Source: a virus. Taken from it: a stretch of 22,340 nucleotides of DNA. Position 1 is the stretch's first letter. Every line of letters begins with the position of its first letter. A program made the position numbers and the translations under genes. Below, in pieces: positions 1 through 22,340 of the stretch. The stretch is taken from positions 1-22,340 of IMG/VR virus record IMGVR_UViG_3300037961_000342; one strand, 5' to 3'. The notes below the pieces were generated by a model, which was not told the DNA's origin, did not search any database, and was given only the letters and a program-made list of their open reading frames with translations.

Positions 1-416
1 GTGGTAATGGTGTTGTAGAAATAGCTGGAATCAAGATCTACAAGTCAATGAATATTCCTTTCCTTGGCAAGTATGGTACTGCTTTCGCTGGTACTACAGG
101 TAAAACTGCACCTACAAACATGGGTGACAGAATTGGTACAGCACTAGAGAATGCTAACGGTTCTCAGACTGGTATCAATAACGACTACGGTCAAGCTGCT
201 GAAGTAGGAGCTAAGTCATGTGGACTTATCTTCCAGAAAGAAGCTGCTGGAGTTGTTGAAGCAATCGGACCTCAAGTACAAGTTACTTCAGGAGATATAT
301 CCGTTGTTTACCAAGGTGATGTAATCCTTGGCAGACTAGCAATGGGCGCAGACTATCTAAACCCAGCTGCTGCTGTAGAATTATATGTTGGCGCAACAGC
401 ACCATCTGCATTCTAA
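1..416 (+). CDS. Major capsid protein, C-terminal part (T7 gp10-like)
   Basis: Partial gene, open from the window edge; codons are in frame from base 3, so the first ATG at 48 is internal. The residues before it (GVVEIAGIKIYKS) continue the same protein. The segment, with short strands and small/polar residues ending in a Gly/Ala-rich tail, resembles the C-terminus of T7-type HK97-fold capsid proteins. Position supports the call: it is followed by a strong terminator and then the tail tube A gene, exactly as gene 10, terminator and gene 11 are ordered in T7. The product would form the icosahedral shell. No T7-style frameshift extension (10B) is visible, because a terminator follows within 20 bases of the TAA. 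The N-terminal domain lies outside the window. Confidence 0.85.
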   Translation, partial: GNGVVEIAGIKIYKSMNIPFLGKYGTAFAGTTGKTAPTNMGDRIGTALENANGSQTGINNDYGQAAEVGAKSCGLIFQKEAAGVVEAIGPQVQVTSGDISVVYQGDVILGRLAMGADYLNPAAAVELYVGATAPSAF

Positions 417-432
417 TTTATACATTTTATAC
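413..432 (+). promoter_or_regulatory. Stop-codon-linked TATACA element (copy 1)
   Basis: The capsid stop TAA (414-416) is followed two bases later by TATACA (419-424) and then a T-rich stretch. The same arrangement, TAA + 2 nt + TATACA + 2 nt + TT, recurs after the stop codons at 20206 and 21706. It could be a phage promoter element or an RNA-processing signal. No function is proven, and TATACA alone is not rare in AT-rich DNA. Confidence 0.3.
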
Positions 433-457
433 GGGACCTTCGGGTCCCTTTTTTTTT
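433..457 (+). terminator. Rho-independent terminator after the capsid gene
   Basis: A perfect 6-bp stem, GGGACC (433-438) with GGTCCC (443-448), closes a stable TTCG tetraloop and runs into nine T residues (449-457). It sits between capsid and tail tube A, the same place as the T7 late terminator after gene 10, which lowers expression of downstream late genes relative to capsid. The T-tract ends only four bases before the next ATG. Confidence 0.93.
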
Positions 458-461
458 ATCT

Positions 462-1070
462 ATGACTACACCAATAGCAACCGATACCGAACTATCCGCA
501 GTTAATTCTATCTTGGGTAGCATAGGTCAATCACCTATAACCACTCTTAATTTTCAAAATCCAGAAGTATCTTTTATACATAATATTCTGACTGAAGTAA
601 CTAAAGATGTACTAAACGAAGGGTGGCATTTTAATACAGAAGATCATGTAAAAGTTAGTCCAGATGCAAATGGCAATATAACTATTCCTACTAACTATCT
701 CCGTTATGACCTTAATAATGGTCAAGCAGATAAACATATGGATCTTGTTAAAAGAGATGGAAAACTATATGACCTAGTGAATCACACAGATGTCTTTGAC
801 CATGACATGGAATTAGATGTTACATATCTTTTTTCCTTTACTGATATCCCTTCAGTATTTCAGAGATATATTATTTCTCGCGCAGCAACTAGAGCAGCTA
901 CTCAACTTGTATCTAATAAAGAATTGGTTTCCTTATTACAAGTACAAGAAGGAACTAATAGAGCAGCTCTACTTGAATATGAATGTAATCAGGGAGATCA
1001 TTCTTTCTTTGGATTCCCACATAACTCAGGTTACAAATCTTTCCAACCTTACAACTCACTTCATAGATAA
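462..1070 (+). CDS. Tail tubular protein A (T7 gp11-like)
   Basis: A 202-residue protein matching T7 gp11 in length (about 196) and position. The N-terminus (TELSAVNSILGSIGQSPI) is the characteristic start of this family. The central part has the conserved 'EGWHFNTE' segment, and the C-terminal half carries the Arg/Ala-rich helix 'ISRAATRAATQLV'. Gp11 forms the dodecameric gatekeeper ring between portal and nozzle. The ATG lies four bases after the terminator T-tract and has no Shine-Dalgarno, so initiation may be leaderless-like or depend on RNA processing. Its stop overlaps the next start as TAATG, implying translational coupling to tail tube B. An overlapping ORF at 817-1131 is a shadow frame. 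Confidence 0.92.
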   Translation: MTTPIATDTELSAVNSILGSIGQSPITTLNFQNPEVSFIHNILTEVTKDVLNEGWHFNTEDHVKVSPDANGNITIPTNYLRYDLNNGQADKHMDLVKRDGKLYDLVNHTDVFDHDMELDVTYLFSFTDIPSVFQRYIISRAATRAATQLVSNKELVSLLQVQEGTNRAALLEYECNQGDHSFFGFPHNSGYKSFQPYNSLHR

Positions 1071-3964
1071 TGGCAAGTATTACACAAAATATACCAACGC
1101 TAAATGGAGGACTATCACAACAGCCAGATGAGCTTAAAATTCCGGGACAAGTTAGTGTTGCAAAAAATGTAATACCTGATGTTACTCACGGATTAATAAA
1201 GCGTCCCGGTGGAAAGTTAATTGCTTCCCTTAGTGATGGTACTAATAACTCCAATACCAATGGTAGATGGTTTTCTTATTACAGAGATGAAGACGAACAA
1301 TATATAGGACAGATCAGTAGAGCTGGTGACATCAATGTATGGAGATGTAGTGATGGTGCTGAGATGGTAGTGAACTATGACACTGCTACTGCCACTGCTC
1401 TCACAAACTATCTAACTCATACAGATGATGAAGATCTACAAACTCTAACTTTGAATGACTACACCTTCATTACTAACAGAACGAAGACAGTATCAATGTC
1501 TAACACTGTTGAGCCAGTCAGACCTCCTGAAGTCTTTATAGATTTAAAAGCTATTTCCTACGCTAGGCAGTACGCATGTAATCTATACGATAACCAAACT
1601 ATGACTCCAGTTTCTACAACTACGAGGATTAGTGTTGAGCTAGAAAAGTCTAGTAATAACTATTGTGATACCAATGGAGCTATGGTTGCTCGTAGCAGCA
1701 GACCTTCACAAAGTACAAGATGTGATGATTCAGCTGGTGACAGTAGAGATGCTTATGCACCTAACGTTGGTACACGAATATTCAACGTAACTGATGGAGA
1801 TAGTCTTACAGATGAAGGTGTTTCTGGAAGTCACACATACACAATAGATGTGAAAGCTGCAAACGGTACGTCAGTTAATAGAGGAGCACAGCTATATTTC
1901 AGGATTAGAACTGTTGGACAGTCAGTACCATTTACATCTGGTTCTGGAGAAAACCAAACAACCACATACCAAGCAAGATATACCACAACATACGATATGT
2001 TGTATGGAGGTACAGGCTGGCAACAGGGAGACTATTTCTACGTATGGATGAAAGATGGATACTATAAAGTTACTATCGAAGCTATAAGTACTACACAAGT
2101 ACAAGCTAACTTAGGTTTGATTAGACCTAATCCAACTCCTTTCGATACAGAAACTGCTATTACTGCTGAGAGTATTCTTGGAGATATAAGAAAAGCGATT
2201 ATAGATGCTGGTAATTTTACCTCTGCTAATATCCAACAGATAGGTAATGGTTTATATATAACTAGAACATCAGGAGCATTTAATATAACCGCTGTAGCTG
2301 GAGATCTACTCAGAGTAATGTCTAGCGAAGTAAAGAACGTGACTGATCTACCAGATCAATGTAAGCATGGATATGTAGTAAAAGTAGCTAACAGTGAAGC
2401 TGATGAAGATGACTACTATGTGAAGTTCTATGGTAACAACGATCAAGATGGAGACGGTGTTTGGGAAGAATGTAATAAACCCGGGAGAAAGATAGAGTTT
2501 GATAAAGGCACTATGCCTATTCAATTAGTCAGAGAAGCTAACGGTCAATTTAAAGTATCTCAAGTTACATGGGATAACTCTCCAGTAGGAGATCCTGATA
2601 TTACTAACCCAGCACCATCATTTGTTGGAAACACTATTAACAAGATGGTGTTCTATAGAAACCGTATGGTAATGCTGAGTGATGAGAATGTAATCATGTC
2701 ACGCCCGGGAGACTTCTTTAACTTCTGGTCCAAGACAGCTACAACATTCACACCTACTGATGTTATTGATTTATCTTGTAGCTCTAACTATCCAGCTATT
2801 GTCTACGATGGTATTCAAATAAATACAGGATTACTATTATTTACTAAGAATCAGCAGTTCATGTTGACTACAGATTCTGATGTTTTAAGTCCTCAGACTG
2901 CCAAGATCAATGCAGTTTCTACATATAACTTTAATAACAAAACTAATCCAATTTCATTAGGTACAACTGTTGCTTTCTTAGATAACGCTAATAAGTATTC
3001 TCGATTCTTTGAGATGTCTAATGTGCTTAAACAAGGGGAGCCTGATGTTGTTGATCAAAGTAAACCTATATCAACTTTACTGCCAAAAGATTTAAGTCTT
3101 ATCTCTGAATCCAGAGAGAACTCAGTCGTATTTTTTAGTCAAAAAAATTCCTCAACACTTTTCGGATTTCGATATTTTGGAACGAGTGAAGGGAGGATGC
3201 TACAAGCTTGGTTTACTTGGGAAGTAACTGGACTGATTCAGTACCATTGCATGATGGACGATTCTATCTACCTTATTGTTCGCAATAACAATAAAGATCA
3301 GATGTTAAAAATCGCTTTAAAACTTGATGATAATGGGCATTTTGTAACCTTTAATGATGATGATTACAGAGTGCATGTAGATCATTCCACCAGTAGTACT
3401 GGTTGGACATATAATGCAACTACTAATAAATCTACTAAAGCTAAACCAGCAGGATTAGAGAGTACAGCTCAATTAGTTGCTTACGATACGGATACAGGAA
3501 ATAATATTGGTCGATATGGAAAGATAACTATTAATGGTTCCAATATGGAACTTGATGGTGACTGGTCTGGAGAGACATTTATTATTGGATATCTATATGA
3601 AATGGATATACAACTACCTACTATCTACACAACCCAAGCACAGGGAAATAAGACGAGAGCTGATACAAAAGCTTCTTTAATTATCCATAGACTGAAGGTT
3701 AACTTTGGACCAGTAGGAGTATATGAAACTAAATTAACTAGACCCGGGAAACCAGATTATACAGATCTAAAAGAACTGGCTATAGCTAGTAACGTAGCAG
3801 CTAATAGAGTACCAGTTGTTGATGAAGTTCAACAGACTATCCCTTGTTATGAAAGAAATACAAACTTAACGATAAATATTAAATCATCACATCCATCCCC
3901 AGCCACAATATTTTCATACGCATGGGAAGGAGACTACAGCAATAGATTTTATAGGCGTGTCTAA
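1070..3964 (+). CDS. Tail tubular protein B (T7 gp12-like nozzle)
   Basis: A 964-residue protein (T7 gp12 is about 794) beginning 'ITQNIPTLNGGLSQQPDE', the diagnostic N-terminus of tail tube B proteins, followed by 'GLIKRPGGKL'. The mid-region 'NKMVFYRNRMVMLSDENV', then 'SRPGDFFNFW', is also family-typical. Gp12 forms the hexameric nozzle at the distal end of the stubby tail and contacts the fibres. The excess over T7 appears to be an insertion in the first half (about residues 170-380), rich in Thr/Ser/Asn and Asp, possibly an extra surface domain. Start overlaps the upstream stop (TAATG). Three CCCGGG hexamers fall in this gene at Pro-Gly codons. Confidence 0.94.
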   Translation: MASITQNIPTLNGGLSQQPDELKIPGQVSVAKNVIPDVTHGLIKRPGGKLIASLSDGTNNSNTNGRWFSYYRDEDEQYIGQISRAGDINVWRCSDGAEMVVNYDTATATALTNYLTHTDDEDLQTLTLNDYTFITNRTKTVSMSNTVEPVRPPEVFIDLKAISYARQYACNLYDNQTMTPVSTTTRISVELEKSSNNYCDTNGAMVARSSRPSQSTRCDDSAGDSRDAYAPNVGTRIFNVTDGDSLTDEGVSGSHTYTIDVKAANGTSVNRGAQLYFRIRTVGQSVPFTSGSGENQTTTYQARYTTTYDMLYGGTGWQQGDYFYVWMKDGYYKVTIEAISTTQVQANLGLIRPNPTPFDTETAITAESILGDIRKAIIDAGNFTSANIQQIGNGLYITRTSGAFNITAVAGDLLRVMSSEVKNVTDLPDQCKHGYVVKVANSEADEDDYYVKFYGNNDQDGDGVWEECNKPGRKIEFDKGTMPIQLVREANGQFKVSQVTWDNSPVGDPDITNPAPSFVGNTINKMVFYRNRMVMLSDENVIMSRPGDFFNFWSKTATTFTPTDVIDLSCSSNYPAIVYDGIQINTGLLLFTKNQQFMLTTDSDVLSPQTAKINAVSTYNFNNKTNPISLGTTVAFLDNANKYSRFFEMSNVLKQGEPDVVDQSKPISTLLPKDLSLISESRENSVVFFSQKNSSTLFGFRYFGTSEGRMLQAWFTWEVTGLIQYHCMMDDSIYLIVRNNNKDQMLKIALKLDDNGHFVTFNDDDYRVHVDHSTSSTGWTYNATTNKSTKAKPAGLESTAQLVAYDTDTGNNIGRYGKITINGSNMELDGDWSGETFIIGYLYEMDIQLPTIYTTQAQGNKTRADTKASLIIHRLKVNFGPVGVYETKLTRPGKPDYTDLKELAIASNVAANRVPVVDEVQQTIPCYERNTNLTINIKSSHPSPATIFSYAWEGDYSNRFYRRV

Positions 3965-4412
3965 ATTTATACATGAAATAACTGAGGAAGCTGCACTAGC
4001 TGTGGCTTCCAATCTTTTACCGGATGACCGTAGAGAAGTTGAAGAGGGTCATGGACATGATCCTATTGAAATAATTCCTCAATGTGCTCAATTGGGACAG
4101 ACCGTATACTTTACTGTTCCAAACGGTGACTTAGCAGGGGTCGCAGGCGTACAGCCTGATGGCAGAATCTGGATGTTATGTACCCCAGCTATAAAAAAAT
4201 ATCCCACTACTTTTGCTAGAGAAGCTAAAAGATATGTGGAAAGTAGACAAGAGAAGTTGCTCTGGAACATCGTTGATAAACGAAACAGAGTTCATATAAA
4301 ACTACTCAGATTCCTTGGGTTCAAATTTTTAAGGGAATTAAATCACGGACCTAATCAATTACCTTTTATGGAGTTTTGCCGTGTGCTTAGGAGCAGCAGC
4401 GAGAACAGCTAA
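3957..4412 (+). CDS. Internal virion protein A-like (T7 gp13 position)
   Basis: A 151-residue protein in the T7 gene 13 slot, between tail tube B and the gp14-like protein (T7 gp13 is about 138 residues). It shows an N-terminal acidic helix, a strand-rich middle ('GLAGVAGVQPDGRIWML'-like pattern around residues 58-75) and a C-terminal 'FLGFKFLRELNHGPNQLPF', reminiscent of small GNAT-fold proteins found here in T7-like phages. The role is probably virion morphogenesis; enzymatic acetylation is unproven. The start is GTG, overlapping the previous gene by 8 nt. The only purine-rich site (GGAAGGAG, 3925-3932) is about 24 bases upstream, too far to be convincing. No in-frame ATG is available nearby. 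Confidence 0.7.
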   Translation: MSKFIHEITEEAALAVASNLLPDDRREVEEGHGHDPIEIIPQCAQLGQTVYFTVPNGDLAGVAGVQPDGRIWMLCTPAIKKYPTTFAREAKRYVESRQEKLLWNIVDKRNRVHIKLLRFLGFKFLRELNHGPNQLPFMEFCRVLRSSSENS

Positions 4413-4983
4413 TGCTAACGCTCGCAGAAGATATAAGTACGAACTAGAGAGGAGAGAACGTCAGTGGAATCAAACCACTTCGATGTACGCTGCCCAGTTA
4501 GTTAAGTATCAAGAAGATAGTGAGAATGTTAACTTAGCAATGGCTCAGTCTGTTGTCGATCAGCAAGAAGCGATGGACGACGCTAGAGGTCAGGCTCAAG
4601 TTAAGTATCAAGAACTATTTAGAAAAGTATTCCAAAATAGTGACTATTCCAAACTTGTAGCATCTGGTCAAACAGGGCAATCTACAAGAAGAATGGGAGC
4701 AATGGAATTTGCTAAATATGGAAGAGATGTAGCTGAGATATCAAGACAGCTTGTTTTAAACGATAGAGAATTAGCTAAGAAGACAGGAAAACAACAAGCG
4801 CAATATAAACAATTCAAAGATCAGGCATTTGCCAAAGTAGCATTCCAACCTATTCCTGATGTTGAACCACCTGTACCAGTTATGCAAAACGTAGGTGCAG
4901 CAGCACTAATGGATGGACTATCAATAGCTTCATCTATCGCTACAGCTGGTGGAACTGGTGGATTCGGAATCTGGGGTGGTTAA
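4381..4983 (+). CDS. Internal virion protein B (T7 gp14-like)
   Basis: A 200-residue protein, the same size as T7 gp14 (196). It starts 'MCLGAA', echoing the Met-Cys-x-x-Ala-Ala start of T7 gp14. A long charged helical or coiled-coil segment (about residues 10-110, rich in Arg, Glu, Gln) is followed by a Pro-rich linker ('PIPDVEPPVPV') and an Ala/Gly-rich C-terminus that could insert in a membrane. In T7, gp14 is ejected first and forms the outer-membrane pore of the ejectosome. GTG start, with GGAG (4370-4373) seven bases upstream. It overlaps the preceding gene by 32 nt and ends exactly before the next ATG. Confidence 0.85.
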   Translation: MCLGAAARTANANARRRYKYELERRERQWNQTTSMYAAQLVKYQEDSENVNLAMAQSVVDQQEAMDDARGQAQVKYQELFRKVFQNSDYSKLVASGQTGQSTRRMGAMEFAKYGRDVAEISRQLVLNDRELAKKTGKQQAQYKQFKDQAFAKVAFQPIPDVEPPVPVMQNVGAAALMDGLSIASSIATAGGTGGFGIWGG

Positions 4984-7479
4984 ATGGTACAACCAAGATT
5001 TGAATTTACTGAATCAGCTGACTTTGCAGCTGCTTTAGGATTAACCTATGACCCTGTAAATAAGAGTTATGACAGGCGTGAAGAGCTAGAGCAAGAGAAC
5101 GACAAGACTCGACTTGCTAATGCTGAGATGCCTGTAAAGCTTATTAAAGAGTTAATAGATTTCTCCCCTAAAGTTAAAAAGATGTACGAAGGTATTCAAG
5201 ATAATGCCTTCGATAGGAATACCGCAGATGGTTGGGATGATACTCCTGACGATCTGACTCAGACTATTAATGAGAATATTAAAAAGGTCTATGAAATAGA
5301 TGCTGGTTATAACTATATAGAAGCTGAAGCTACTAGTAAGAATGATAATGCGACCTTAAAATGGTTAAGTCAAGATGGAGTAAAACTAGCTAAGAACAGA
5401 GACTTGTTCATGCTTGATAGCAAGAACATGTTAAACAGCCAATTTAACTCATTTATTGAAAAGAATTACCCTGATGGATTTAATGATGAAAGGGAAGCTT
5501 TAGCAGCTTTTAATCAGTTCCGAAGAGGATTTAGCTATAACATGTCCCAGCTTGGATATAACGGTGGTTATATAAAAGCTAGAACAGAAGATAAGTTTGA
5601 TGAAATAAAAGCTAACTTCCTTGCGAAAGCAGTCACAGATGTTACTGGTAAGTACACTCTCAAAAATGACAGGTTACTAAGAGCGCATGTTAATACTGCA
5701 CTTAATGTTTCCGACAATCATTTTCAATCTGCTGAAGCTTGGGTCACTAATAACTTAGGTAAGTTTAATGGCAATAGAGCTAGAGCTTGGGAGTTCTTTT
5801 TACTTGAAGCTGTTGACAGTGTTAGTAAAGGAACTGCTGGTTGGGATAATATCGAAGAGATACTTTACACAACCGTTGATGGAAATAAAAAATATAACGA
5901 GCTACTAATTGAAAAGCTTGGTGGTAGTGAAAAAGGTCAAGAAGTCATGCGAGATATTCTTCTTAAATTAGAAGAAGGTAAAAAAGTTTGGGCAACTCGT
6001 AAGACTGATGCAAATAAAGTCTATCAAATTGAATTTGAGGAGAAGATTAAAGAGCTAGAAAAAGATGGACCTTTAAGTAAGACAGCTTTAGCAGATTATG
6101 TTGGCAAGAATTGGGAGTGGTCTGAAGGAGGAGCACTTCCTCAATCTATCTTGGGACGATTATCTAAAGAAGACGTTGATGATTTTGAAATTATCGCAAT
6201 CCTCGAACAGCGTTACAAGATAGGAGAAAAGATATTCCCTGAAGATATAAATCAAATTACCGATACAAGACTTAGGGAAGAGTGGACTAAGAGACTCAAC
6301 TTCACTACTGAAAATGGACAAGCCGTAGCTCAAGATCCATTAGTTCCTGATGGTAATCAACTAACTTCTGCTACCTTAATGATTGAAGCTCACGCTGATA
6401 AAAGAACTAAGTTAGGTGGTATTCCCGGGAAGACTGAAGAGTGGATTAATTTAAAAAATAATGGAACAGCTTATTTTAAAGAAAGGTATGCGTTTCATAT
6501 AAAAACTGCTCCTAGTAAAACTGCTGCTTATGATTTAGCAATGGCAGATGTTAAGAATGCCATGATCAATAATCAAGGTTATGTGGGTGGAACATTAACA
6601 AAGGTAGACCTTACAGCTGGATTTGATTTACCTACTAAAGAAGAGATAGGTGATCACAGTATAAACATCATAAAAGCTGAAAGACATATTAAAGAACTTA
6701 GTCCAGATGGTTCAATTATTAATACTGAAATCATTTATGGAACTGAGGAGTATGTAGAAGAAGCATATGAGCTATATCAAAAAACTGGTACTACCGCTTT
6801 AATTTATGACCAGATAGCAAAAAATATCCCCGGTATAAGTGGATCTGAATTGCAGTATGCACAATTAAAAGTGTATGCCAAAAAATTAGGGTTAGAAGAA
6901 CCTATTAAATCAAAAGTTTTAATTGAGTTAGAAGAACTTAAAGACAAGAATCCTGAAGCTTACAATCTACTAACGAACTTTAAAGATCAAGCTCGAGTTG
7001 TACAGGCAACTATCAACGCGTTTGGTCCTGAATCTGAGAACGGTGAAAAGATTGGATTTAATGAATACAGCAATCTCATCCCGGAACTACTTGAAGAGTT
7101 CAACGCAAAAGGTGAAGGTAACGCATTTGTGCTGGAAAATGGAATGGTTCATGTAAGTCAAACTTGGTTAGAACAAGCTCAACCAGAAATAGGAGATTGG
7201 AAACAACTACCAATGAGTCATGCTCAACAACTATCTATGACCACTACATATATAAAATGGGATGGAGAGCATTGGGTTACAACACCATATCGTCCAAGTG
7301 GAAACAAATGGATTGGAAGTATTGATGGCTTTGTTACTAAACAACCTACCTATGACGATGGTGGTTGGGAAACAGGCTCTGAAATAGTCAAAGAATACAC
7401 AGGTTTAACTTACTCTCATAGAAATGAAATTACGGGATACGACGGCTTTGAAAAAGCTAAACCTTTCTGGGAATGGTAA
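4984..7479 (+). CDS. Internal virion protein C (T7 gp15-like)
   Basis: An 831-residue, mostly helical, highly charged protein in the T7 gene 15 slot (T7 gp15 is 747). It contains no obvious transmembrane segment or enzymatic motif. Trp-containing helical stretches repeat through the protein, and the C-terminus is Trp/Gly-rich ('GYDGFEKAKPFWEW'). T7 gp15 forms the periplasmic tunnel of the DNA ejection machine with gp16. Identification rests on position, size and composition more than on a single motif. The ATG directly follows the TAA of the gp14-like gene. Confidence 0.82.
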   Translation: MVQPRFEFTESADFAAALGLTYDPVNKSYDRREELEQENDKTRLANAEMPVKLIKELIDFSPKVKKMYEGIQDNAFDRNTADGWDDTPDDLTQTINENIKKVYEIDAGYNYIEAEATSKNDNATLKWLSQDGVKLAKNRDLFMLDSKNMLNSQFNSFIEKNYPDGFNDEREALAAFNQFRRGFSYNMSQLGYNGGYIKARTEDKFDEIKANFLAKAVTDVTGKYTLKNDRLLRAHVNTALNVSDNHFQSAEAWVTNNLGKFNGNRARAWEFFLLEAVDSVSKGTAGWDNIEEILYTTVDGNKKYNELLIEKLGGSEKGQEVMRDILLKLEEGKKVWATRKTDANKVYQIEFEEKIKELEKDGPLSKTALADYVGKNWEWSEGGALPQSILGRLSKEDVDDFEIIAILEQRYKIGEKIFPEDINQITDTRLREEWTKRLNFTTENGQAVAQDPLVPDGNQLTSATLMIEAHADKRTKLGGIPGKTEEWINLKNNGTAYFKERYAFHIKTAPSKTAAYDLAMADVKNAMINNQGYVGGTLTKVDLTAGFDLPTKEEIGDHSINIIKAERHIKELSPDGSIINTEIIYGTEEYVEEAYELYQKTGTTALIYDQIAKNIPGISGSELQYAQLKVYAKKLGLEEPIKSKVLIELEELKDKNPEAYNLLTNFKDQARVVQATINAFGPESENGEKIGFNEYSNLIPELLEEFNAKGEGNAFVLENGMVHVSQTWLEQAQPEIGDWKQLPMSHAQQLSMTTTYIKWDGEHWVTTPYRPSGNKWIGSIDGFVTKQPTYDDGGWETGSEIVKEYTGLTYSHRNEITGYDGFEKAKPFWEW

Positions 7480-7486
7480 ATAAATT

Positions 7487-11230: not shown

Positions 11231-11241
11231 TCCACCCATCA

Positions 11242-11253
11242 ATCCTAAAGGAT
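11242..11253 (+). promoter_or_regulatory. Shine-Dalgarno within a small inverted repeat before the fibre gene
   Basis: ATCC (11242-11245), TAAA, GGAT (11250-11253) forms a 4-bp hairpin that contains the purine-rich AAAGGA ribosome site, 5 bases before the ATG at 11258. This is one of the few clear Shine-Dalgarno sites in the window. The stem is short, so regulation by folding is only a possibility. Confidence 0.4.
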
Positions 11254-11257
11254 CTCG

Positions 11258-16855: not shown

Positions 16856-17208
16856 AGAAACTAATTCTGCTTTTAGCTCTGTTATCACCCAGCATAGCTA
16901 GAGCCAACACAGTCACTCCCCAGTTCACTACAGGGAGTATGAACTCAACGACCACTACGACTCAAACTATTGTGGAGACGGAGCAACGTCAGGTCTTCGG
17001 AGCTGAAGTTAAAACGTGGTCAGGTAATAACGTAACTGCATCTGGAAACTTATCAGATACAGCTACAACATTTTCAGTAACTAACGCCACCCTACCGTGG
17101 AACTTAGAAACAACAACAAGAAGCGCAGGCTTAGTAGAGCAAATAGATTACACCAGAAACTACACAATAAACTCTACTACTACTTCGCTGTCTGTCTTCT
17201 CTCAATAA
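16852..17208 (+). CDS. Exported Thr-rich protein
   Basis: 118 residues with a clear Sec signal peptide: basic start, hydrophobic core and Ala-x-Ala cleavage site ('KKLILLLALLSPSIARA', cut before Asn19). No lipobox cysteine is present, so it is soluble or outer-surface rather than a lipoprotein. The mature part is very rich in Thr/Ser/Asn, with short beta-like stretches and no Cys. Function unknown; envelope or outer-membrane association is plausible. Its last 112 bases also lie within the next gene in another frame, and its start overlaps the preceding stop (ATGA). Confidence 0.72.
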   Translation: MKKLILLLALLSPSIARANTVTPQFTTGSMNSTTTTTQTIVETEQRQVFGAEVKTWSGNNVTASGNLSDTATTFSVTNATLPWNLETTTRSAGLVEQIDYTRNYTINSTTTSLSVFSQ

Positions 17209-17666
17209 GTCCAGTACTGGCTGAAGGAGACACAAATAATAATAGTAACCCTGTGGCAGCAGCCACCGGAAACGTTACGAATCAAGCTGTCCAATTCCAG
17301 AATAATGGAGCACCAAGTAGACAATCCTTTGGTCCCAACATTTCTTGTAACGGCAGCACGATGACATTTAGCCCATTTTATATGGGCAACGATACGGAAC
17401 CACAGACAGAAGATGGTTACGTAATTTCAGAGAACTGGGGGTTTCAAGTAAACTTCTCAGTTCCTTTAAACAGAAAACTGACAAAGCAATGCGAAGAAAT
17501 GGCAGCTAGTCAGATACAAAAAAATAAGCTCGATTTTGAATTAGTTCGTGCACTCAAATGTGCCGAGCTACAGCAGAAAGGCTTTACCCTGCTACCCGGA
17601 TCACGTGTATATCACCTCTGCTCTGATGTAGTACCTATCCAATCACTTATACCAAAGAAAAAATAA
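17097..17666 (+). CDS. Exported four-cysteine protein
   Basis: 189 residues from GTG 17097, the only ordinary start codon in this frame (stop upstream at 17082-17084). The N-terminus has many Arg/Lys, then a hydrophobic core and an Ala site ('FAVCLLSISPVLA' before Glu), giving a long-n-region signal peptide. The mature domain contains four Cys ('NISCNG', 'KQCEE', 'LKCAE', 'HLCSD'), consistent with periplasmic disulfides, and a strand motif 'ENWGFQVNFSVPL'. No enzymatic motif is recognised. It overlaps the preceding exported-protein gene by 112 nt, an unusually long dual-coded stretch, and the following gene as TAATG. Probably works with its neighbour in the envelope. Confidence 0.68.
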   Translation: MELRNNNKKRRLSRANRLHQKLHNKLYYYFAVCLLSISPVLAEGDTNNNSNPVAAATGNVTNQAVQFQNNGAPSRQSFGPNISCNGSTMTFSPFYMGNDTEPQTEDGYVISENWGFQVNFSVPLNRKLTKQCEEMAASQIQKNKLDFELVRALKCAELQQKGFTLLPGSRVYHLCSDVVPIQSLIPKKK

Positions 17667-17824
17667 TGTTAGCAATTCTAAAACCATTCGTGCTCAGTGC
17701 ACTTAAGTCACCAAAATTCAAGACTTTTGTTGTGGAATTATTGGAAAAATTAGTAGCCCAGAGTGATAACGAATTGGACGACAAAGCATTAGCAATAGTC
17801 AAAAAAGGATTAGACCTTGAGTAA
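17666..17824 (+). CDS. 52-residue conserved-looking small protein
   Basis: A short ORF that begins at ATG 17666 overlapping the upstream stop (TAATG) and ends with TAA directly before the next ATG. The protein starts 'LAILKPFVLSALKSPKFKTF', an amphipathic helix, followed by 'VVELLEKLVAQSDNELDD' and ends 'KGLDLE'. It is entirely helical in appearance, with no signal peptide or cysteines. The perfect tiling between two real genes and the regular amphipathic pattern support it being expressed. Function unknown; a membrane-surface helix is possible. Confidence 0.68.
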   Translation: MLAILKPFVLSALKSPKFKTFVVELLEKLVAQSDNELDDKALAIVKKGLDLE

Positions 17825-18610
17825 ATGGTTAGACCACTCCGACACCCAATAATATCTCCCGATCCATTTATTTGGATTCGGGACTATGCTTTAGAACCAG
17901 ACTTTTGTGAACATGTTATCGCAAAGTTTCAAGAAGACACTGAAAATACTTATGTAGGATTAACAGGTTTTCCACCACGAGTAAGTCCAATAAAAACATC
18001 TCGTGATTTAAGAACTGATATACATGAGCATTGGATTGAAGAAACAGGTGTCTTTAGAGAAAACCTTAGAGTAGCTTTACAAGAGTATGTAAATCATATA
18101 CAAAGCCACATAGTTTTACCAACATACGAACATAACGAGCAACTACCCTATGCACAATTTCCTATGTGTACAGGCGATATAATTGATTACGGCTTTCAGA
18201 TACAAGAAACAAAACCTTACGGTTGTTATGACTGGCACGAAGATAGCTTAATTAATTTTGTAGATCGACATGAGCGTACATTGACTTATCTATATTATTT
18301 GAATGATATTTTTGACGATGGTTGTACTGAATTTATGAATGGATTTAAAGTACCTCCACGTCAAGGAAGACTGATTATATTTCCATCTACATGGACTTAC
18401 ATGCACAGAGGAGGTATTCTTCATGGTCAGCAAAATAAGTATATAGCTACTGGCTGGATTTGTAGAGATTACAGCAATGAACCAGAAGGTAATTTGCCAA
18501 GTAATGCTGTACAAGAAGATATAGAGTTAAAAGAAGAAGATATTGATGAACTTACATATGAACCTCCAATCGAAGGAGAATTAACATTAGACGAAACTAT
18601 TTTGCAATGA
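17825..18610 (+). CDS. 2-oxoglutarate/Fe(II)-dependent oxygenase (oxygenase 2)
   Basis: 261 residues, a second and distinct oxygenase. The metal triad is visible: H138 and D140 in 'YDWHEDS' and H194 in 'TYMHRGGILH'. 'LTYLYYLNDIFDDGCTEF' followed by 'GRLIIFPS' forms the jelly-roll core. The 2-oxoglutarate-binding residue is probably in 'NKYIATGWI', where Lys205 stands in place of the more usual Arg. An acidic tail of about 40 residues follows the domain. The N-terminal 120 residues fit the helical part of prolyl-4-hydroxylase-like proteins. Substrate unknown. The start is contiguous with the upstream stop and its TGA overlaps the next ATG. It is much longer than, and not obviously a duplicate of, the oxygenase at 15718. 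Confidence 0.87.
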   Translation: MVRPLRHPIISPDPFIWIRDYALEPDFCEHVIAKFQEDTENTYVGLTGFPPRVSPIKTSRDLRTDIHEHWIEETGVFRENLRVALQEYVNHIQSHIVLPTYEHNEQLPYAQFPMCTGDIIDYGFQIQETKPYGCYDWHEDSLINFVDRHERTLTYLYYLNDIFDDGCTEFMNGFKVPPRQGRLIIFPSTWTYMHRGGILHGQQNKYIATGWICRDYSNEPEGNLPSNAVQEDIELKEEDIDELTYEPPIEGELTLDETILQ

Positions 18611-18741
18611 AATTATTAATTCCATTAATTATTGTGTTTGGAGCTTTAACTCATTCAGCTATAGCACATCCACAAGTTCACCTACATGACCATGACCACG
18701 AAGAAACAGATATTGAACAGGTGGTTATTCTCGACGAATAA
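18607..18741 (+). CDS. Tiny exported His-rich peptide
   Basis: 44 residues, overlapping oxygenase 2 as ATGA. A signal peptide ('KLLIPLIIVFGALTHSAIA') occupies the first 20 residues. The 24-residue mature peptide begins 'HPQVHLHDHDHEETD', with five His and several Asp/Glu in alternating positions, typical of Zn/Ni/Cu/Fe-binding stretches. The gene tiles correctly after the oxygenase, but its last 56 nt overlap the start of the sulfotransferase-like gene in another frame. A metal-capturing role is inferred only from composition. It could alternatively be the truncated remnant of a longer exported protein. Confidence 0.6.
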   Translation: MKLLIPLIIVFGALTHSAIAHPQVHLHDHDHEETDIEQVVILDE

Positions 18742-19318
18742 TTGCGGATCTACATTAATGGCAGCTTTACTCTGCCGAACAATAAAGACATATGTAGAAC
18801 CTCCAACATTAGATAATGTTGTAGCTGGAAGCTGTGTAGAACCTCGGTATTATTTACATAATCTAGCTACTACAGTCAGAGGTCCAAAAGTATTTTTATA
18901 TAGAAAGCTTCCATCTCAAATTGGTGCATGGATGCAAGAGATGGTTATATATGAACTTATGGAGCATGCAGAAAGATGGGTCAATTCTGTACAGCTGATG
19001 AAAGAAGCAAAAGATCTTATTTTTATAGACTCAAATGACTTCTTTTCAGACGTGCGTGGCACTATGGATTTAGTATGCGATCATTTTAAAATTCCTAAAA
19101 TAAAGAATTTAAACTGGGCAAACCATAATGTTAAATATCTAGGATTACAACGAGTACAGCATGCACCTATACAATTACCAGAACCTCCAGAAGGTATTGG
19201 TACATTTACTGCTAAAGATGGAATTATAGATCCAGACTTAGCAATGACTATACCTCAGATAGAAGAGGTTGTTACTCCTTTACGCGAGAAGTACCCACAT
19301 CTTCGGAAATACATGTAA
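18686..19318 (+). CDS. Sulfotransferase-like protein
   Basis: 210 residues. The N-terminal 'RWLFSTNNCGSTLMAALL' (residues 12-29) resembles the PAPS 5'-phosphate loop of sulfotransferases (strand, Ser-x-x-x-x-Gly-Ser-Thr, helix). 'KVFLYRKLPSQIGAWM' (68-83) fits the 3'-phosphate-binding Arg/Ser region, and 'LIFIDSNDFFSDVRGTMDLV' followed by 'CDHFKIP' (111-137) fits the usual 'E/D-D-F/L...FLG' segment before the C-terminus. It would transfer sulfate from PAPS to a sugar, protein or lipid. The middle helical region is shorter than in cellular enzymes. The ATGs at 18686 and 18692 both lie within the preceding gene; the first strand needs this N-terminus. A related P-loop fold cannot be excluded. 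Followed by a terminator. Confidence 0.58.
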   Translation: MTMTTKKQILNRWLFSTNNCGSTLMAALLCRTIKTYVEPPTLDNVVAGSCVEPRYYLHNLATTVRGPKVFLYRKLPSQIGAWMQEMVIYELMEHAERWVNSVQLMKEAKDLIFIDSNDFFSDVRGTMDLVCDHFKIPKIKNLNWANHNVKYLGLQRVQHAPIQLPEPPEGIGTFTAKDGIIDPDLAMTIPQIEEVVTPLREKYPHLRKYM

Positions 19319-19321
19319 ATC

Positions 19322-19388
19322 AAGGGGTACAAACATACCCAGACAAAATTACAAGCCCCTTACAGGCGATTCTGGAGGGGCATTTTTT
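19322..19388 (+). terminator. Terminator with possible antiterminator pairing
   Basis: The stem GCCCCT (19355-19360) with AGGGGC (19376-19381) is extended inside by CAG/CTG (19363-19365 with 19372-19374) and followed by A and six T (19383-19388). Upstream, AAGGGG (19322-19327) is complementary to CCCCTT (19356-19361), so it could compete with the terminator stem. The same upstream segment can instead form a local hairpin GGGTA/TACCC (19325-19340). This three-way arrangement resembles an attenuator. It separates the accessory cassette from the packaging genes. Confidence 0.8.
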
Positions 19389-19398
19389 ATGAAAATCA

Positions 19399-19644
19399 AT
19401 GAAAAAGGCAACTGAAGAGGAATTTAACGAATTACACCAGTTAGTCACAAAAGAATTTTTAGCGAGAGTTAAAAGCGGTGAAGCTACAACTCAAGACCTG
19501 AAAGCAGCCTGTGATTGGCTGAAGTCAAACGATATATCAGGTGTTGCCTACGATGGCAGCCCATTATCAAAGCTGGCGCAAGTATTGCCAGAAGTAGACC
19601 CAGAATTAGTAAAGGCAAAACTCTATGGCAAAATCGGGAGCTAA
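19399..19644 (+). CDS. Terminase small subunit (T7 gp18-like)
   Basis: 81 residues, close to T7 gp18 (89). The protein is helical, with 'EEFNELHQLVTKEFLARVKSGEAT', then 'DLKAACDWLKSNDISGVAYDG', a pattern I associate with small terminase subunits of marine T7-like phages (helix, Ser-Gly-Glu turn, 'LKAA..WLK.N.I'). It would recognise concatemeric DNA and recruit the large subunit. The position upstream of the large terminase fits, although three genes intervene. The ATG is ten bases after a terminator T-tract and has no Shine-Dalgarno; an ATG at 19389 opens only an 8-codon frame. It overlaps the next gene by 20 nt. Confidence 0.72.
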   Translation: MKKATEEEFNELHQLVTKEFLARVKSGEATTQDLKAACDWLKSNDISGVAYDGSPLSKLAQVLPEVDPELVKAKLYGKIGS

Positions 19645-19879
19645 ATATGCCAATGGCAACTATAAAGCTCAACAAAAAGCATATAACAAAACAAAGAAGG
19701 GGTTAGCTCTACGTGTCAATGCGAATGCTATTAACCGAGCCAAAGGTACTTATGGCAATGGTGATGGGAAAGACGTTGCCCATAAAGCTGGAAAACAAAA
19801 CAGCAAAAACCCAAAAGACGCAACTTTGCAGTCTCCATCTAAAAACAGAAAAAGCAGACTAAAAATACGTAAAGCATGA
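19625..19879 (+). CDS. Small basic protein, possibly nucleic-acid binding
   Basis: 84 residues, very rich in Lys, Arg, Asn and Gly, with almost no acidic or hydrophobic clusters. It contains 'AKSGAKYANGNYKAQQKAY', then 'INRAKGTYGNGDGKDVAHK', and ends 'KSRLKIRKA'. It overlaps both neighbours (20 nt with small terminase; ATGA with the HNH gene), so the three are probably co-translated. A disordered basic DNA-binding or packaging-accessory role is inferred from charge and context. No recognised domain. Alternative-frame ORFs here are shadows. Confidence 0.7.
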   Translation: MAKSGAKYANGNYKAQQKAYNKTKKGLALRVNANAINRAKGTYGNGDGKDVAHKAGKQNSKNPKDATLQSPSKNRKSRLKIRKA

Positions 19880-20208
19880 CCCCTCTACTACCTAGTCCAA
19901 AACATTACTTACACAATTTAATAACCATGACAAGTTCAGATTCAAAACGGCTCTGGAGAAGAGCTGTGAAACAGCACTTCAATTGTCAATGTGTTTATTG
20001 CGGAAAAACTTATGAAGAACATGAACTCACGCTCGACCACGTTAAACCTCTTAGCAGAGGTGGAGAAACTCTTACGAAAAATATCGTATGTGCCTGCAAG
20101 AGCTGCAATCAGGATAAAGGTAGTAGAAACTGGCTCCAATGGATGAGACATCGTTGGGGTCCTAGACCTAAAAGGGAAAAGATGATAAGCGACCACCTAG
20201 CTGCATAA
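19876..20208 (+). CDS. HNH endonuclease
   Basis: 110 residues with a complete HNH core: CxxC at C39/C42 ('CVYCGKTY'), 'LDHVKPLSRGG' with D54-H55, N69, then 'CKSCNQDKG' with C74/C77 and N78. Two CxxC pairs would hold a structural zinc, and H55 with N69/N78 forms the beta-beta-alpha-metal nuclease site. Free-standing HNH proteins beside terminase genes assist DNA packaging in several phage groups; homing is the alternative. It overlaps the previous gene as ATGA. A second possible start, M18 at 19927, keeps the whole nuclease core. An element and a terminator follow. Confidence 0.9.
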   Translation: MTPLLPSPKHYLHNLITMTSSDSKRLWRRAVKQHFNCQCVYCGKTYEEHELTLDHVKPLSRGGETLTKNIVCACKSCNQDKGSRNWLQWMRHRWGPRPKREKMISDHLAA

Positions 20209-20226
20209 TCTATACACCTTAGAATA
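20205..20226 (+). promoter_or_regulatory. Stop-codon-linked TATACA element (copy 2)
   Basis: The HNH gene stop TAA (20206-20208) is followed two bases later by TATACAC (20211-20217) and TT. Over 22 bases this copy matches the one at 21705-21726 at 17 positions without gaps. It lies upstream of a terminator, as does copy 1 after the capsid gene. Candidate promoter or RNA-processing signal; function not shown. Confidence 0.35.
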
Positions 20227-20232
20227 TTTACC

Positions 20233-20252
20233 GCCCCGTAAGGGGCTTTTTT
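20233..20252 (+). terminator. Rho-independent terminator after the HNH gene
   Basis: GCCCC (20233-20237), a GTAA tetraloop of the GNRA type and GGGGC (20242-20246) are followed by six T (20247-20252). Only one base separates the T-tract from the ATG at 20254, so the next gene has no Shine-Dalgarno and read-through transcripts would carry the hairpin at the start codon. Confidence 0.88.
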
Positions 20253-20253
20253 A

Positions 20254-21708
20254 ATGGGAAGAAAAAAGTTACCTAAACCCGAGAATACGAAATATACTTT
20301 TGAAGAATACAGACGACTAGCACTAGACCTATACCATAACCAAGGGAAGACCCCGGGACAGATCAGAGCCCAATTAGGTACTCCGTTTTGGGATGGTCAA
20401 GAATGGTTTATAGAATTTAGCAAGAATGATCCTTCAGTATTTAATAGAACTCGGGCAGAGAAGAAAGTAGGAGCGTTAAATAAAAGAGCAAAGAGATCCA
20501 CATTCGTTGATAAAGACGTACAGCAATGGGCTGATCGTCTGACTAAAGAAGGAAAGTGGCCGGAAGGTAAATCACTTGATGGGTTTATATCAGCTGAAAA
20601 GCGATTACAAACCTTATTAACTAAAGAAATAGAACGTTTAAGAGGTTTAGGTCTTGATGTGTCTGATGGACATATTATTGCCTTAGCTAACGAGAACGTT
20701 AGAGGAACACCTCTTGATAAGGCTGGGAAAGGCGGAAGTCATAGTCCTAGGTCAAGAGTTGCTGAAATGCAATCATCAAATAAAGCTAGAGGTTCTCAGT
20801 ACGATATAGACAAATTTACTGCTAGAGAAGCTGGTATTCCTACCACTTCGTCAGAAGCATTTGCCCAGTACTTAACCGGGGACCAAGGAACCGGCGTACA
20901 CCTTACCTCTAAAGACAAACAAGCAATACATTTACAAGGGGCAGACCCTAACCAAGTAATTGCCGAGAGATATGAATATGTTGAACGGAAGAAGATGGAA
21001 GCGTGGAATAAAAGACTTTCTGGTGTGGTGGCTTATTCTCAAGCTGATTCAAACTACGAAGCCGTAAAGACACCGAATCGAAGAGTAAGTAACGGTAACG
21101 GAAACGGAAACGGTAACGGAGTTAACGGTAACGGAAACGGTAACGGAGTTAACGGTAAGAATGGTAACGGAAAAGCTAACGGTACCGACCTTAATTATGA
21201 AGAGTTCTTAGCATCTAAGAAGAACGGTAATAATCTTCTAACTGGAATACAAGGCAAATTTGGTAATCTTAGAAGAGTAGACCAAGTTACAAACATTGGT
21301 CTTAATGCAGCTTCCGGAAACGTTGCTGGAGCAGCTTTAGGTACTGGACTATTAGCTGGAAGCGAACTACTTAAGAATGAGAAGTTCCAGAGAAGAATGG
21401 CGACACAGATCAGTGAATTAGTAGCTAAACGTGGAACTAAGTCTGCATTAAAGCTTATTCCCGGGTTAGACGTACTTATATCAGGAAAAGAAACTTGGGA
21501 CTACCTTCAAAGAGGAAAATTAGACCAAGCAGGAATTGCACTGTTAAGTGGAGCTATTGGTTGGATTCCTGTCATAGGAGATGGTATATCAGCTTCTTTA
21601 GACCTAACAAATACAGGATTAGATATAGCTCGTATGAATTACACAGGCAATGATCCTAAGAAGAAGAAGAACAAGCTTGATACGCCCACCAGACGCTTCA
21701 AAGTATAA
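20254..21708 (+). CDS. Large unknown protein with Asn-Gly linker and hydrophobic Gly-rich C-terminus
   Basis: 484 residues, no family recognised. The N-terminal ~75 residues look like a helical DNA-binding region ('YTFEEYRRLALDLYHNQGKT', 'PGQIRAQLG'). Residues about 125-190 contain 'LGLDVSDGHIIALANENVRG' and 'SHSPRSRVAEMQSSNKARGS', vaguely HNH-like in His/Asn spacing. A low-complexity Asn-Gly linker (about residues 280-310) separates these from a C-terminal domain with hydrophobic Gly/Ala segments ('AASGNVAGAALGTGLLAGSE') and 'LIPGLDVLISGKE', 'ALLSGAIGWIPVIGDGISAS', resembling pre-toxin/membrane-active Gly-rich domains of polymorphic toxins. It sits alone between two regulatory gaps, directly before the large terminase. 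It may be a virion-carried or packaging-linked effector; this is inference. Confidence 0.72.
   Translation: MGRKKLPKPENTKYTFEEYRRLALDLYHNQGKTPGQIRAQLGTPFWDGQEWFIEFSKNDPSVFNRTRAEKKVGALNKRAKRSTFVDKDVQQWADRLTKEGKWPEGKSLDGFISAEKRLQTLLTKEIERLRGLGLDVSDGHIIALANENVRGTPLDKAGKGGSHSPRSRVAEMQSSNKARGSQYDIDKFTAREAGIPTTSSEAFAQYLTGDQGTGVHLTSKDKQAIHLQGADPNQVIAERYEYVERKKMEAWNKRLSGVVAYSQADSNYEAVKTPNRRVSNGNGNGNGNGVNGNGNGNGVNGKNGNGKANGTDLNYEEFLASKKNGNNLLTGIQGKFGNLRRVDQVTNIGLNAASGNVAGAALGTGLLAGSELLKNEKFQRRMATQISELVAKRGTKSALKLIPGLDVLISGKETWDYLQRGKLDQAGIALLSGAIGWIPVIGDGISASLDLTNTGLDIARMNYTGNDPKKKKNKLDTPTRRFKV
21091..21183 (+). repeat. AACGGW hexamer array encoding an Asn-Gly linker
   Basis: Twelve AACGGT/AACGGA units, mostly in tandem, with two GTT interruptions. 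Bases 21097-21123 and 21124-21150 are 27-base copies differing at one position, evidence of recent duplication or slippage. It encodes Asn-Gly repeats with occasional Val or Lys. Linker length is likely variable between relatives. Confidence 0.85.
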
Positions 21709-21726
21709 CTTATACACATTCGTATA
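21705..21726 (+). promoter_or_regulatory. Stop-codon-linked TATACA element (copy 3)
   Basis: The stop TAA (21706-21708), two bases, TATACAC (21711-21717), one base, TT and then CGTATA run directly into the ATG at 21726. It matches copy 2 at 17 of 22 positions with the stop codon in register. Here no terminator intervenes before the start codon. Confidence 0.35.
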
Positions 21727-22133
21727 TGTATGACAATTTAAACGCCTTACAGGGCGATTTCAAGCTGTTTCTGCAAGCATTATGGAATCAGCTTGATCTA
21801 CCTTCACCCACACGTGCACAATATGCGATTGCAGACTATTTACAAAACGGTCCGAAACGATTACAGATCCAAGCGTTTCGTGGGGTTGGTAAGTCTTGGA
21901 TTACTGGTGCTTTCGTCCTTTGGACTCTATTTAAAGACCCAGAAAAGAAAATAATGATAATTTCGGCTTCTAAAGAAAGAGCCGACAACATGAGTATCTT
22001 CTTACAAAAATTATGTATCTCGGGACTCCTCAGACTACTTTTACTGTTTATCGTAAGTTGGCAGAGCGGGCTTATCGACCATTTGTCTGGCCGAGTAGAT
22101 ACCCAAAAGACGTTACACCATACGAAGGACTAA
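21726..22133 (+). CDS. Terminase large subunit, N-terminal fragment (T7 gp19-like)
   Basis: Genuine terminase sequence runs to about 22012 (residue ~96). It includes 'LPSPTRAQYAIADYLQNGPK', the Walker A loop 'AFRGVGKSW' (about residues 54-62) and 'IMIISASKERADNMSIFLQK', which closely parallels T7 gp19. After 'FLQKL' the frame leaves the family: the remaining ~40 codons to the TGA at 22131-22133 (Leu-rich, then His/Thr) are out of frame and unlike terminase. The proper continuation appears at 22013 in another frame, with roughly 90 residues missing compared with T7 gp19, including the Walker B region. As written, the product could not be an active packaging ATPase. Either a real deletion or an assembly error. 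Confidence 0.88.
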   Translation: MYDNLNALQGDFKLFLQALWNQLDLPSPTRAQYAIADYLQNGPKRLQIQAFRGVGKSWITGAFVLWTLFKDPEKKIMIISASKERADNMSIFLQKLCISGLLRLLLLFIVSWQSGLIDHLSGRVDTQKTLHHTKD

Positions 22134-22340
22134 TAGCTCCACAGCTACAAGAAGACATAGATAATGGTGCCGAAGCAGGGCAACCGACTGACCCAGAACG
22201 ATTTGCTAATGAAGACTTACTGGAAAGGGAGTCAGCTATGGGACGAAGCAACTTTATGCTTCAGTTCCAGCTTGACACCACGCTTAGTGATGCTGAGAAG
22301 TTTCCTCTTAAGGCTGCTGACCTTGTTATTACTAGCGTTA
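22013..22340 (+). pseudogene. Terminase large subunit, displaced downstream part
   Basis: From ATG 22013, frame +2, the sequence reads 'MYLGTPQTTFTVYRKLAERA', then 'WPSRYPKDVTPYEGLIAPQL' and later 'GRSNFMLQFQLDTTLSDAEK', matching the part of T7 gp19 beginning 'IYLGTPQTE' and continuing to 'LQFMLNPNLSDAEKYPL'. It stays open to the window end. It is joined to the Walker A fragment at about 22005-22013 with a frame change of one base, so the intact gene would need about 3n+1 bases restored. The ATG at the join is an internal codon in relatives, not a natural start. The nuclease domain should follow beyond the window. Confidence 0.85.

Follow-up and report, generated by a model that had tools for sequence, protein, structure and literature searches.

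Loss of CCWGG or of CCSGG as two exclusive states in T7-like phages related to Prochlorococcus podoviruses

Introduction

What can strip a five-base word from the genome of a marine phage? The question is raised by the first 22,340 bases (hereafter the window) of the 29,222-base IMG/VR virus record IMGVR_UViG_3300037961_000342, in which neither CCAGG nor CCTGG (together CCWGG, W being A or T) occurs. A preliminary description, made from the letters alone, had reported this absence where well over ten sites were expected, and had attributed it to selection by a CCWGG-cutting system, or to methylation with deamination, in the host range of the phage. The genome of T7 is itself scarce in EcoRII sites. 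EcoRII and MvaI cut CCWGG, and BcnI and NciI cut CCSGG (S being C or G). Here we report that the clade of the window phage holds two mutually exclusive states, one without CCWGG and one without CCSGG, and we weigh what might impose them.

Megablast against the Prochlorococcus podovirus P-SSP7 covers 43% of the window at 77% identity. In a gene-by-gene comparison the window has its gene order in common with Prochlorococcus podoviruses, as T7-like cyanopodoviruses do, and its genes for the tail, internal core, HNH and terminase are those of a T7-like cyanophage. Judged by this sequence evidence, the virus is a T7-like cyanophage with P-SSP7, P-SSP2 and P-GSP1 as relatives.

Results

Direct counting gave no CCAGG and no CCTGG in the window, against expectations of 20.1 (third-order Markov model), 22.0 (first-order) and 18.5 (base composition); the avoidance is real. 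The Markov count had been set beforehand for the rest of the record as well, and the remaining 6,882 bases also hold none (5.6 expected, order 3). Among palindromes of four, five (W or S centre) and six bases, depletion is strongest for CCWGG (z -4.48) and enrichment strongest for CCSGG, with 25 occurrences against 11.3 (order 3) or 6.2 (order 1). We then shuffled synonymous codons 1000 times over 21 genes (21,186 coding bases), keeping all proteins and the codon usage. CCWGG averaged 19.6 sites (range 11-29), so that the near-zero expectation named in advance as grounds for doubt did not arise, and CCSGG averaged 4.5 with a maximum of 12, against 24 observed in coding sequence. All 13 proline codons that precede glycine in the window are CCC or CCG, compared with 23 of 234 elsewhere. 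Strong selection at the level of the DNA, and neither of protein nor of base composition, has purged CCWGG.

The 25 CCSGG words (14 CCCGG and 11 CCGGG) fall at 18 places, seven of them CCCGGG, so the "about 17" of the preliminary description was nearly right; two of its example positions, 1139 and 1204, are really 1142 and 1205. As it had also remarked, GATC is common (66 occurrences), so the avoidance is not of palindromes in general, although GGCC is depleted (2 vs. 13.9). GGCC is likewise low in pooled CCWGG-avoiding loci (147 vs. 1189), in P-SSP7 and in S-RIP2, and near normal in sampled host DNA (1214 vs. 1345).

Comparison with related phages, which had been proposed as a check, agreed with the window in part. 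The CCWGG loss is common to P-SSP2 (1 vs. 37.6), P-SSP3 (0 in 43.5 kb, 37.5 to 37.6 expected; 1 in the whole record) and P-GSP1 (0 vs. 37.5 in 41.2 kb; also 0 in the whole record), whereas P-SSP7 is in the opposite state, with CCSGG lost (1 vs. 7.7) and CCWGG at 35 vs. 59. The cyanophages 9515-10a (L012) and NATL2A-133 (L013) lack CCGG (0 vs. 36 and 42), and S-TIP37, Syn5, P60 and SS120-1 show no comparable CCWGG loss. The host of P-SSP2 (L011) is given as Synechococcus WH8017 in its GenBank record and as Prochlorococcus MIT9312 in the part of PMC4646655 consulted.

We extended the comparison by using three genes, those for tail tubular protein B (gp12), terminase and DNA polymerase, to scan IMG/VR (80 loci each). 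A word was called avoided when its count was at most 0.15 of the order-1 expectation; loci with a small expectation were dropped, and the counts exclude 13 loci that were partial or were IMG/VR copies of P-SSP7 or P-SSP2. The tail and polymerase scans gave 59 testable loci, of which 47 avoid only CCWGG, 8 only CCSGG, 4 neither and 0 both. The terminase scan, which reaches more distant phages, gave 37, with 11, 4, 22 and 0 in the same order. Nine loci were removed before these counts, whereby the CCSGG-avoiding contig 3300017912_000540 is entirely absent from them, and near-duplicates are still in the sets (P-SSP2 and P-SSP3; identical gp12 in G055 and G056 and in G054 and G064). After removal of eight repeated-contig loci, the pooled CCWGG-avoiders (153 loci, 1.57 Mb) hold 24 CCWGG vs. 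1499 expected and 1378 CCSGG vs. 853, totals that describe and cannot test because the pool was chosen by its depletion. The CCSGG-avoiding pool includes CCGG-avoiders and was excluded from use.

Since the classes are defined by word counts, totals within a class are partly circular. Four points are free of this circularity: the exclusivity itself, the retention of proline-glycine pairs with a third-base swap, the several changes on the tree and the gene association. By its starred branches, a quick gp12 tree requires the CCSGG-avoiding label to have been gained or lost at least four times. The swap can be read in the codons. In 15 CCWGG-avoiding records, proline before glycine is CCC or CCG 311 times and CCA or CCT 4 times, with CCA and CCT making up 84% of proline codons elsewhere; in five CCSGG-avoiding records it is CCA or CCT 86 times and CCC twice. 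(NATL1A-7, CCSGG-avoiding by rule, was reassigned by hand to "neither" for these and the gene-content counts.) At four conserved proline-glycine columns of gp12 (window positions 1142, 1205, 2480 and 2705; Table 1), CCWGG-avoiders have 214 CCS codons and one CCA, and CCSGG-avoiders have 34 CCW and no CCS. Both states retain these dipeptides and differ in the third base alone, so it is the DNA that is constrained.

Table 1. Features of the window (strand left empty where none applies).
Feature	Position	Strand	Remark
CCWGG-free region (CCAGG/CCTGG)	1..22340		0 observed vs. 20.1 (order 3); codon shuffle mean 19.6
Tail tubular protein B (gp12) gene	1070..3964	+	used for tree and codon-swap test
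CCSGG site, conserved Pro-Gly pair of tail tubular protein B gene (CCG GG)	1142..1146		CCWGG-avoiders 55/55 CCS; CCSGG-avoiders 11/11 CCW (CCA/CCT)
CCSGG site, conserved Pro-Gly pair (CCC GG)	1205..1209		50/50 CCS in CCWGG-avoiders vs. 8/8 CCW in CCSGG-avoiders
CCCGGG, conserved Pro-Gly pair	2480..2485		55/55 CCS in CCWGG-avoiders vs. 6/6 CCW in CCSGG-avoiders
CCCGGG, Pro-Gly codon pair from 2705	2704..2709		CCWGG-avoiders 54 CCS and 1 CCA; CCSGG-avoiders 9/9 CCW
HNH endonuclease gene, 110 amino acids	19876..20208	+	PF14279 HNH_5, E 6.7e-16
Hypervariable open reading frame between HNH gene and terminase	20254..21708	+	N-terminal HNH-like motif by eye only; no Pfam match
DNA maturase/terminase large subunit gene, start	21726..22340	+	runs on past window end within record

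Gene-content comparisons yielded one gene whose presence separates the states, that for the protein numbered gp12 in P-SSP7, a methyltransferase-like protein of phrog_757, a family named as DNA methyltransferase. Across 27 records it is carried by 4 of 5 CCSGG-avoiders (the fifth, in which it was not seen, is incomplete at 32.9 kb), by 2 of 2 CCGG-avoiders (both 9515-10a and NATL2A-133 have it), by 0 of 15 CCWGG-avoiders and by 0 of 5 others. Close upstream of it lies a gene of the family DUF7227 (PF23872), which occurs in both states: in 18 CCWGG-avoiding and 5 CCSGG-avoiding contigs, and in 3 of 21 rows of the "neither" class. The 15 CCWGG and 4 CCSGG rows in which it was not seen nearly all end or start near that place; L164 and L253, typed as CCSGG-avoiding, may really be without it. 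In the record of the window virus (L008) DUF7227 lies past the window end, broken by undetermined bases. Two contigs of one sample, L036 and L257, contain both words; in L257, DUF7227 was not seen between talC and the RNA polymerase gene, and this is possibly a phage released from the constraint.

For wider sets we took the best 80 IMG/VR loci of longer lists for each of DUF7227, phrog_757 and ThyX. Loss of CCWGG was seen in 33 of 76 testable loci for DUF7227, in 6 of 78 for phrog_757 and in 2 of 60 for ThyX (Fisher p 2.4e-8 for DUF7227 vs. ThyX and 2.5e-7 vs. phrog_757, uncorrected for relatedness), and loss of CCSGG in 24/62 phrog_757, 8/76 DUF7227 and 0/21 ThyX loci. GGWCC is a second word lost in phrog_757 carriers (L485-L564), in 31/73 loci against 9/78 for DUF7227 and 2/55 for ThyX, and goes beyond what the CCWGG/CCSGG finding explains. 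Among 48 words tested in the DUF7227 set, every word but CCWGG was lost in at most nine loci, and many of the non-avoiding loci are one close group. The CCWGG-avoiding label changes at least 10 times on the DUF7227 tree, and no neighbour family enriched in the CCWGG-avoiding DUF7227 loci was found. The Pseudomonas phage PaP1, a DUF7227 carrier, has 0 CCWGG vs. 86 and 149 CCSGG vs. 105 in 50 of its 91.7 kb. Among 42 records looked at beside the eight CCWGG-avoiders found without recourse to DUF7227 (see Discussion), DUF7227 scored over the cut-off in three, none of which avoids CCWGG; P-RSP2, with a partial match, has 54 CCWGG vs. 57. phrog_757 was present in 2 of 50 DUF7227 records searched, one avoiding CCSGG (L447) and the other CCWGG (L457), and L552, which has both genes by motif, avoids CCSGG. 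Further named phrog_757 carriers have low CCSGG (PB15, 2 vs. 15), 25 vs. 42 (DB2) or an uninformative 1 vs. 1.4 (mumin9-1). In the Pelagibacter phage Gjalp EXVC020P (L018) several words are absent together: GATC (0 vs. 75), GCWGC (0 vs. 39), CASTG (0 vs. 42) and CCWGG (0 vs. 24).

An AlphaFold2 model of DUF7227 (mean predicted local distance difference test score, pLDDT, 96.1) is a barrel whose first six structural neighbours are radical S-adenosylmethionine (SAM) enzymes, with Z of 6.8 to 5.9 and root-mean-square deviations of 4.2-5.5 over 158-168 residues; pyruvate formate-lyase activase (Z 6.8) and QueE (Z 6.3) are at the top, and other barrels follow from Z 5.4. A Z under 8 may reflect a common arrangement, and the best Foldseek match (E 2.7e-3) is a different barrel, UVDE. 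Invariant cysteines in a 41-sequence alignment are C28, C32 and C38 (CX3CX5C), plus C186, C196, C199 and C202. The canonical radical SAM cluster motif is CX3CX2C, from which this spacing departs, and a search with the DUF7227 profile gave no relative of solved structure (best E 0.81). DUF7227 is predicted to be a barrel most like radical SAM enzymes, at modest Z. It does not resemble a nuclease, and this would fit DNA or nucleotide modification.

Several other phage genes were tried as determinants and rejected. For gp3, the T7 endonuclease I homologue, the nearest relative is of the same class in 42 of 53 cases and identity across classes reaches 99%; in the HNH gene by the terminase, no column separates 29 CCWGG-avoiding from 12 CCSGG-avoiding contigs. 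Versions of the PD-(D/E)XK gene PSSP7_018 are closely similar by eye in the CCSGG-avoiding G056 and the CCWGG-avoiding G065; a small PD-(D/E)XK-like protein (L019:12697-13071, below the Pfam cut-off) is encoded between the DNA polymerase and exonuclease genes, and of the records searched for its family, 4 of 5 that avoid CCSGG and 2 of 15 that avoid CCWGG have it. Inspection by eye of a proline-rich gene that precedes the portal gave no sign of a nuclease. The hypervariable open reading frame before the terminase exists in several unlike versions inside the CCWGG-avoiding class. In the window and in P-SSP7 (L019, 40359-42065) it has HNH-like motifs by eye and NGNGNG linkers; the P-SSP7 record labels 40435-41124, within it, "genomic PCR only", and this DNA may have been unclonable.

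Columns that separate the classes do occur in RNA polymerase (5 columns; 32 CCWGG-avoiding and 8 CCSGG-avoiding contigs), integrase (54; 13 and 5), gp0.7 (22; 12 and 5) and gp15 (131; 7 and 6). We judge this to be linkage, since the RNA polymerases of S type seem to form a single group, and neither gp0.7 nor integrase is seen in P-GSP1. No gene was convincingly common to P-SSP2 and P-GSP1 and absent from P-SSP7 at the level of BLAST used here; the best candidate, a small protein family, is present in 7 of 10 fuller records of CCWGG-avoiders and in 0 of 3 of CCSGG-avoiders. Of 26 phage records, some of them fragments, none had the MvaI_BcnI domain at E <= 1, in a scan whose control matched 1 of 14 genomes, below the cut-off.

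On the host side, the search for an EcoRII/Dcm-like methyltransferase that the preliminary description had called for was answered in one respect. Of 50 Prochlorococcus genomes, 10 have C5-methyltransferase matches, which in two of them adjoin a Vsr-like protein; the one such locus that was family-scanned matched Dcm (NF007772, E 6e-100, short of the cut-off set for this model) and Vsr (TIGR00632, E 8e-42). Nothing in the 50 genomes was recognised as a CCWGG nuclease, and the MvaI/BcnI family was found in none of them, in a scan whose control gave no match. Beside two other C5-methyltransferases there are a BglI-like and a weak TdeIII-like nuclease match. In Prochlorococcus G041 (contig C19, L400, 7592-12768) the Dcm-like methyltransferase and Vsr stand with a 667-amino-acid protein, ATPase-like by eye, and two unknown genes; an integrase-like gene (by eye) lies farther along, and the locus is a possible defence island. 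Pooled low-GC (under 0.36) Prochlorococcus loci have 1038 CCWGG vs. 860 and 144 CCSGG vs. 220; a normal CCWGG frequency in host loci is, taken alone, no evidence for or against a host system.

Discussion

Selection against CCWGG, as the preliminary description proposed, is strongly supported, and a cutting system in the host range may be responsible, though this is unproven. Tentatively, and at less than even confidence, we favour a reading in which restriction-like pressure at CCNGG-type sites (N being any base) has its dangerous half set by the DNA-acting genes of the phage, which then removes that half. In the cells entered, a restriction-like activity would cut DNA at such sites, its likeliest source being the host or a mobile element within it, and phage genes acting on DNA would decide which half of the sites is dangerous. 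Phages with DUF7227 and without the phrog_757 methyltransferase, the group of the window phage, would have to lose CCWGG. Those also carrying phrog_757 would be able to keep CCWGG, perhaps by methylating it, and would lose CCSGG instead. The window phage would escape cutting by site removal.

A good deal weighs against this account. On the host side there is the failure to recognise a CCWGG nuclease in the 50 genomes, and many Prochlorococcus genomes lack restriction-modification, typically having 0 to 1 system (PMC8262939, in the portion consulted). P-GSP1 was isolated on MED4 according to its GenBank record and to the table of PMC4646655, and MED4 is infected by P-SSP7 (PMC3350473, consulted in part); a MED4 enzyme alone therefore cannot be the selector, and one host strain tolerates both words in some form. 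As to phrog_757, L189 avoids CCSGG without it, the carriers Bcep1 (137 vs. 147) and PA11 (19 vs. 21) have normal CCSGG, which rejects it as a universal cause, and the loss of CCSGG is unexplained if phrog_757 protects CCWGG. DUF7227 fails as a universal cause in the same way: CCWGG is kept in 35 of 80 DUF7227 loci, in S-SRP01 (92 vs. 97), in DSL-LC03 (56 vs. 64; its CCGG is 1 vs. 20) and in five ThyX loci with the DUF7227 motif. Closely similar DUF7227 proteins occur in both classes (L476, L477), no DUF7227 residue tells the classes apart, L457 avoids CCWGG with both genes present, and of eight CCWGG-avoiders found without recourse to DUF7227, only one has the gene in its record (some are fragments). 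Neither gene is decisive by itself.

Another explanation, somewhat unlikely in our estimation, is plain host restriction: Prochlorococcus populations would differ in carrying CCWGG- or CCSGG-cutting type II systems, phages would lose the sites of their own hosts, and the phage genes would be bystanders. Site avoidance is widespread, if not universal, in prokaryotic viruses (PMC6286503, as far as consulted), and the host methyltransferases, the two Dcm-like genes beside Vsr among them, together with the BglI-like and TdeIII-like neighbours, are in keeping with it. Host restriction does not, however, predict that no locus avoids both words and that few avoid neither. It sits poorly with the opposite states of two phages reported from MED4 and with the scarcity of restriction-modification in the genus; the normal CCWGG frequency of host loci leaves it where it was.

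Rather unlikely, too, is that the phage avoids an enzyme of its own, a site-specific DNA-damaging activity in a CCWGG or a CCSGG form that hits host or rival DNA while the phage genome, free of the site, is immune. Mutual exclusivity and near-total loss suggest an agent that is always present, and the shared host MED4, the association of gene carriage with the lost word in the wider set and the DUF7227 carrier PaP1 without CCWGG all point the same way. Against it, gp3, the HNH gene, the hypervariable reading frame and the PD-(D/E)XK gene fail to separate the states, the MvaI/BcnI domain was not found in the 26 phage records, and DUF7227 is predicted to be a radical-SAM-like barrel, not a nuclease, and is present in phages with normal CCWGG. 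We consider it unlikely, but worth stating, that DUF7227 and phrog_757 are parts of phage-borne DNA-acting systems that make CCWGG, and respectively CCSGG or GGWCC, lethal in the carrier, whose genome is rebuilt without the word. If true, a phage-borne gene would act on host or rival phage DNA, with the absence of the site as the phage's immunity, and lineages would flip state by one gene gain or loss followed by a third-base swap at every proline-glycine pair.

Mutational loss, by CCWGG methylation followed by C-to-T deamination or by a bias of replication or repair, is very improbable. phrog_757 is named as a DNA methyltransferase family, yet it was not found in the 15 CCWGG-avoiding records. 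The deamination suggested earlier left no signature in the pooled CCWGG-avoiding loci: its products CTAGG/CCTAG and CTTGG/CCAAG stand at 1.02 and 1.10 of expectation, compared with 1.62 for CCSGG, the centre-base change. Near-zero counts and a third-base swap in both directions are not expected from a one-way bias. An artefact of codon usage, dinucleotide content or assembly has a negligible chance of being the cause, for although an AT-rich window (GC content 0.385) lowers all GC-rich words, the codon-preserving shuffle never fell below 11 sites, isolates sequenced by others (P-SSP2, P-GSP1) agree and CCSGG is in excess.

Phage restriction-site avoidance as such is known, and the likeness is that a short palindromic word of restriction-modification type is missing from a lytic-type phage genome (PMC6286503, in the parts consulted). 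The present case differs in having two exclusive states within one clade, with a same-codon swap and at least four changes on the gp12 tree, and in tracking phage-encoded genes in a host genus poor in restriction-modification. The main text of PMC6286503 contains none of "prochlorococcus", "cyano" and "ccwgg". In searches of open-licence papers we found no description of CCWGG loss in Prochlorococcus phages, nor of the two-state switch, the codon signature and the connection with two families of genes. CCWGG and CCSGG coincide exactly with the recognition sequences of EcoRII/MvaI and of BcnI/NciI, but no such enzyme was found in the 26 phage and 50 host records within the limits of the MvaI/BcnI scans given above. 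The Dcm and Vsr pair of Escherichia coli is matched by two Prochlorococcus genomes with a C5-methyltransferase adjoining a Vsr-like protein, with the difference that the locus is confined to those 2 of 50 genomes, and its specificity and any cutting partner are putative. Phage-encoded cytosine methyltransferases (phrog_757) are carried by P-SSP7 and other CCSGG-avoiders; what differs here is that carriers in the wider set are often wholly without CCSGG (24/62) or GGWCC (31/73).

These marine phages are under a genome-wide constraint on sequence that is close to absolute. It exists in two interchangeable forms, one codon position suffices to read it, and it provides a sequence-only test for the DNA-cutting pressure on a phage. 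Two poorly characterised families, DUF7227 and the phrog_757 methyltransferase, are named by it; across a wider set of phages, their carriage is associated with which word is lost. The identity of the cutter would tell who imposes the constraint: ocean hosts poor in restriction-modification, mobile elements or the phages themselves.

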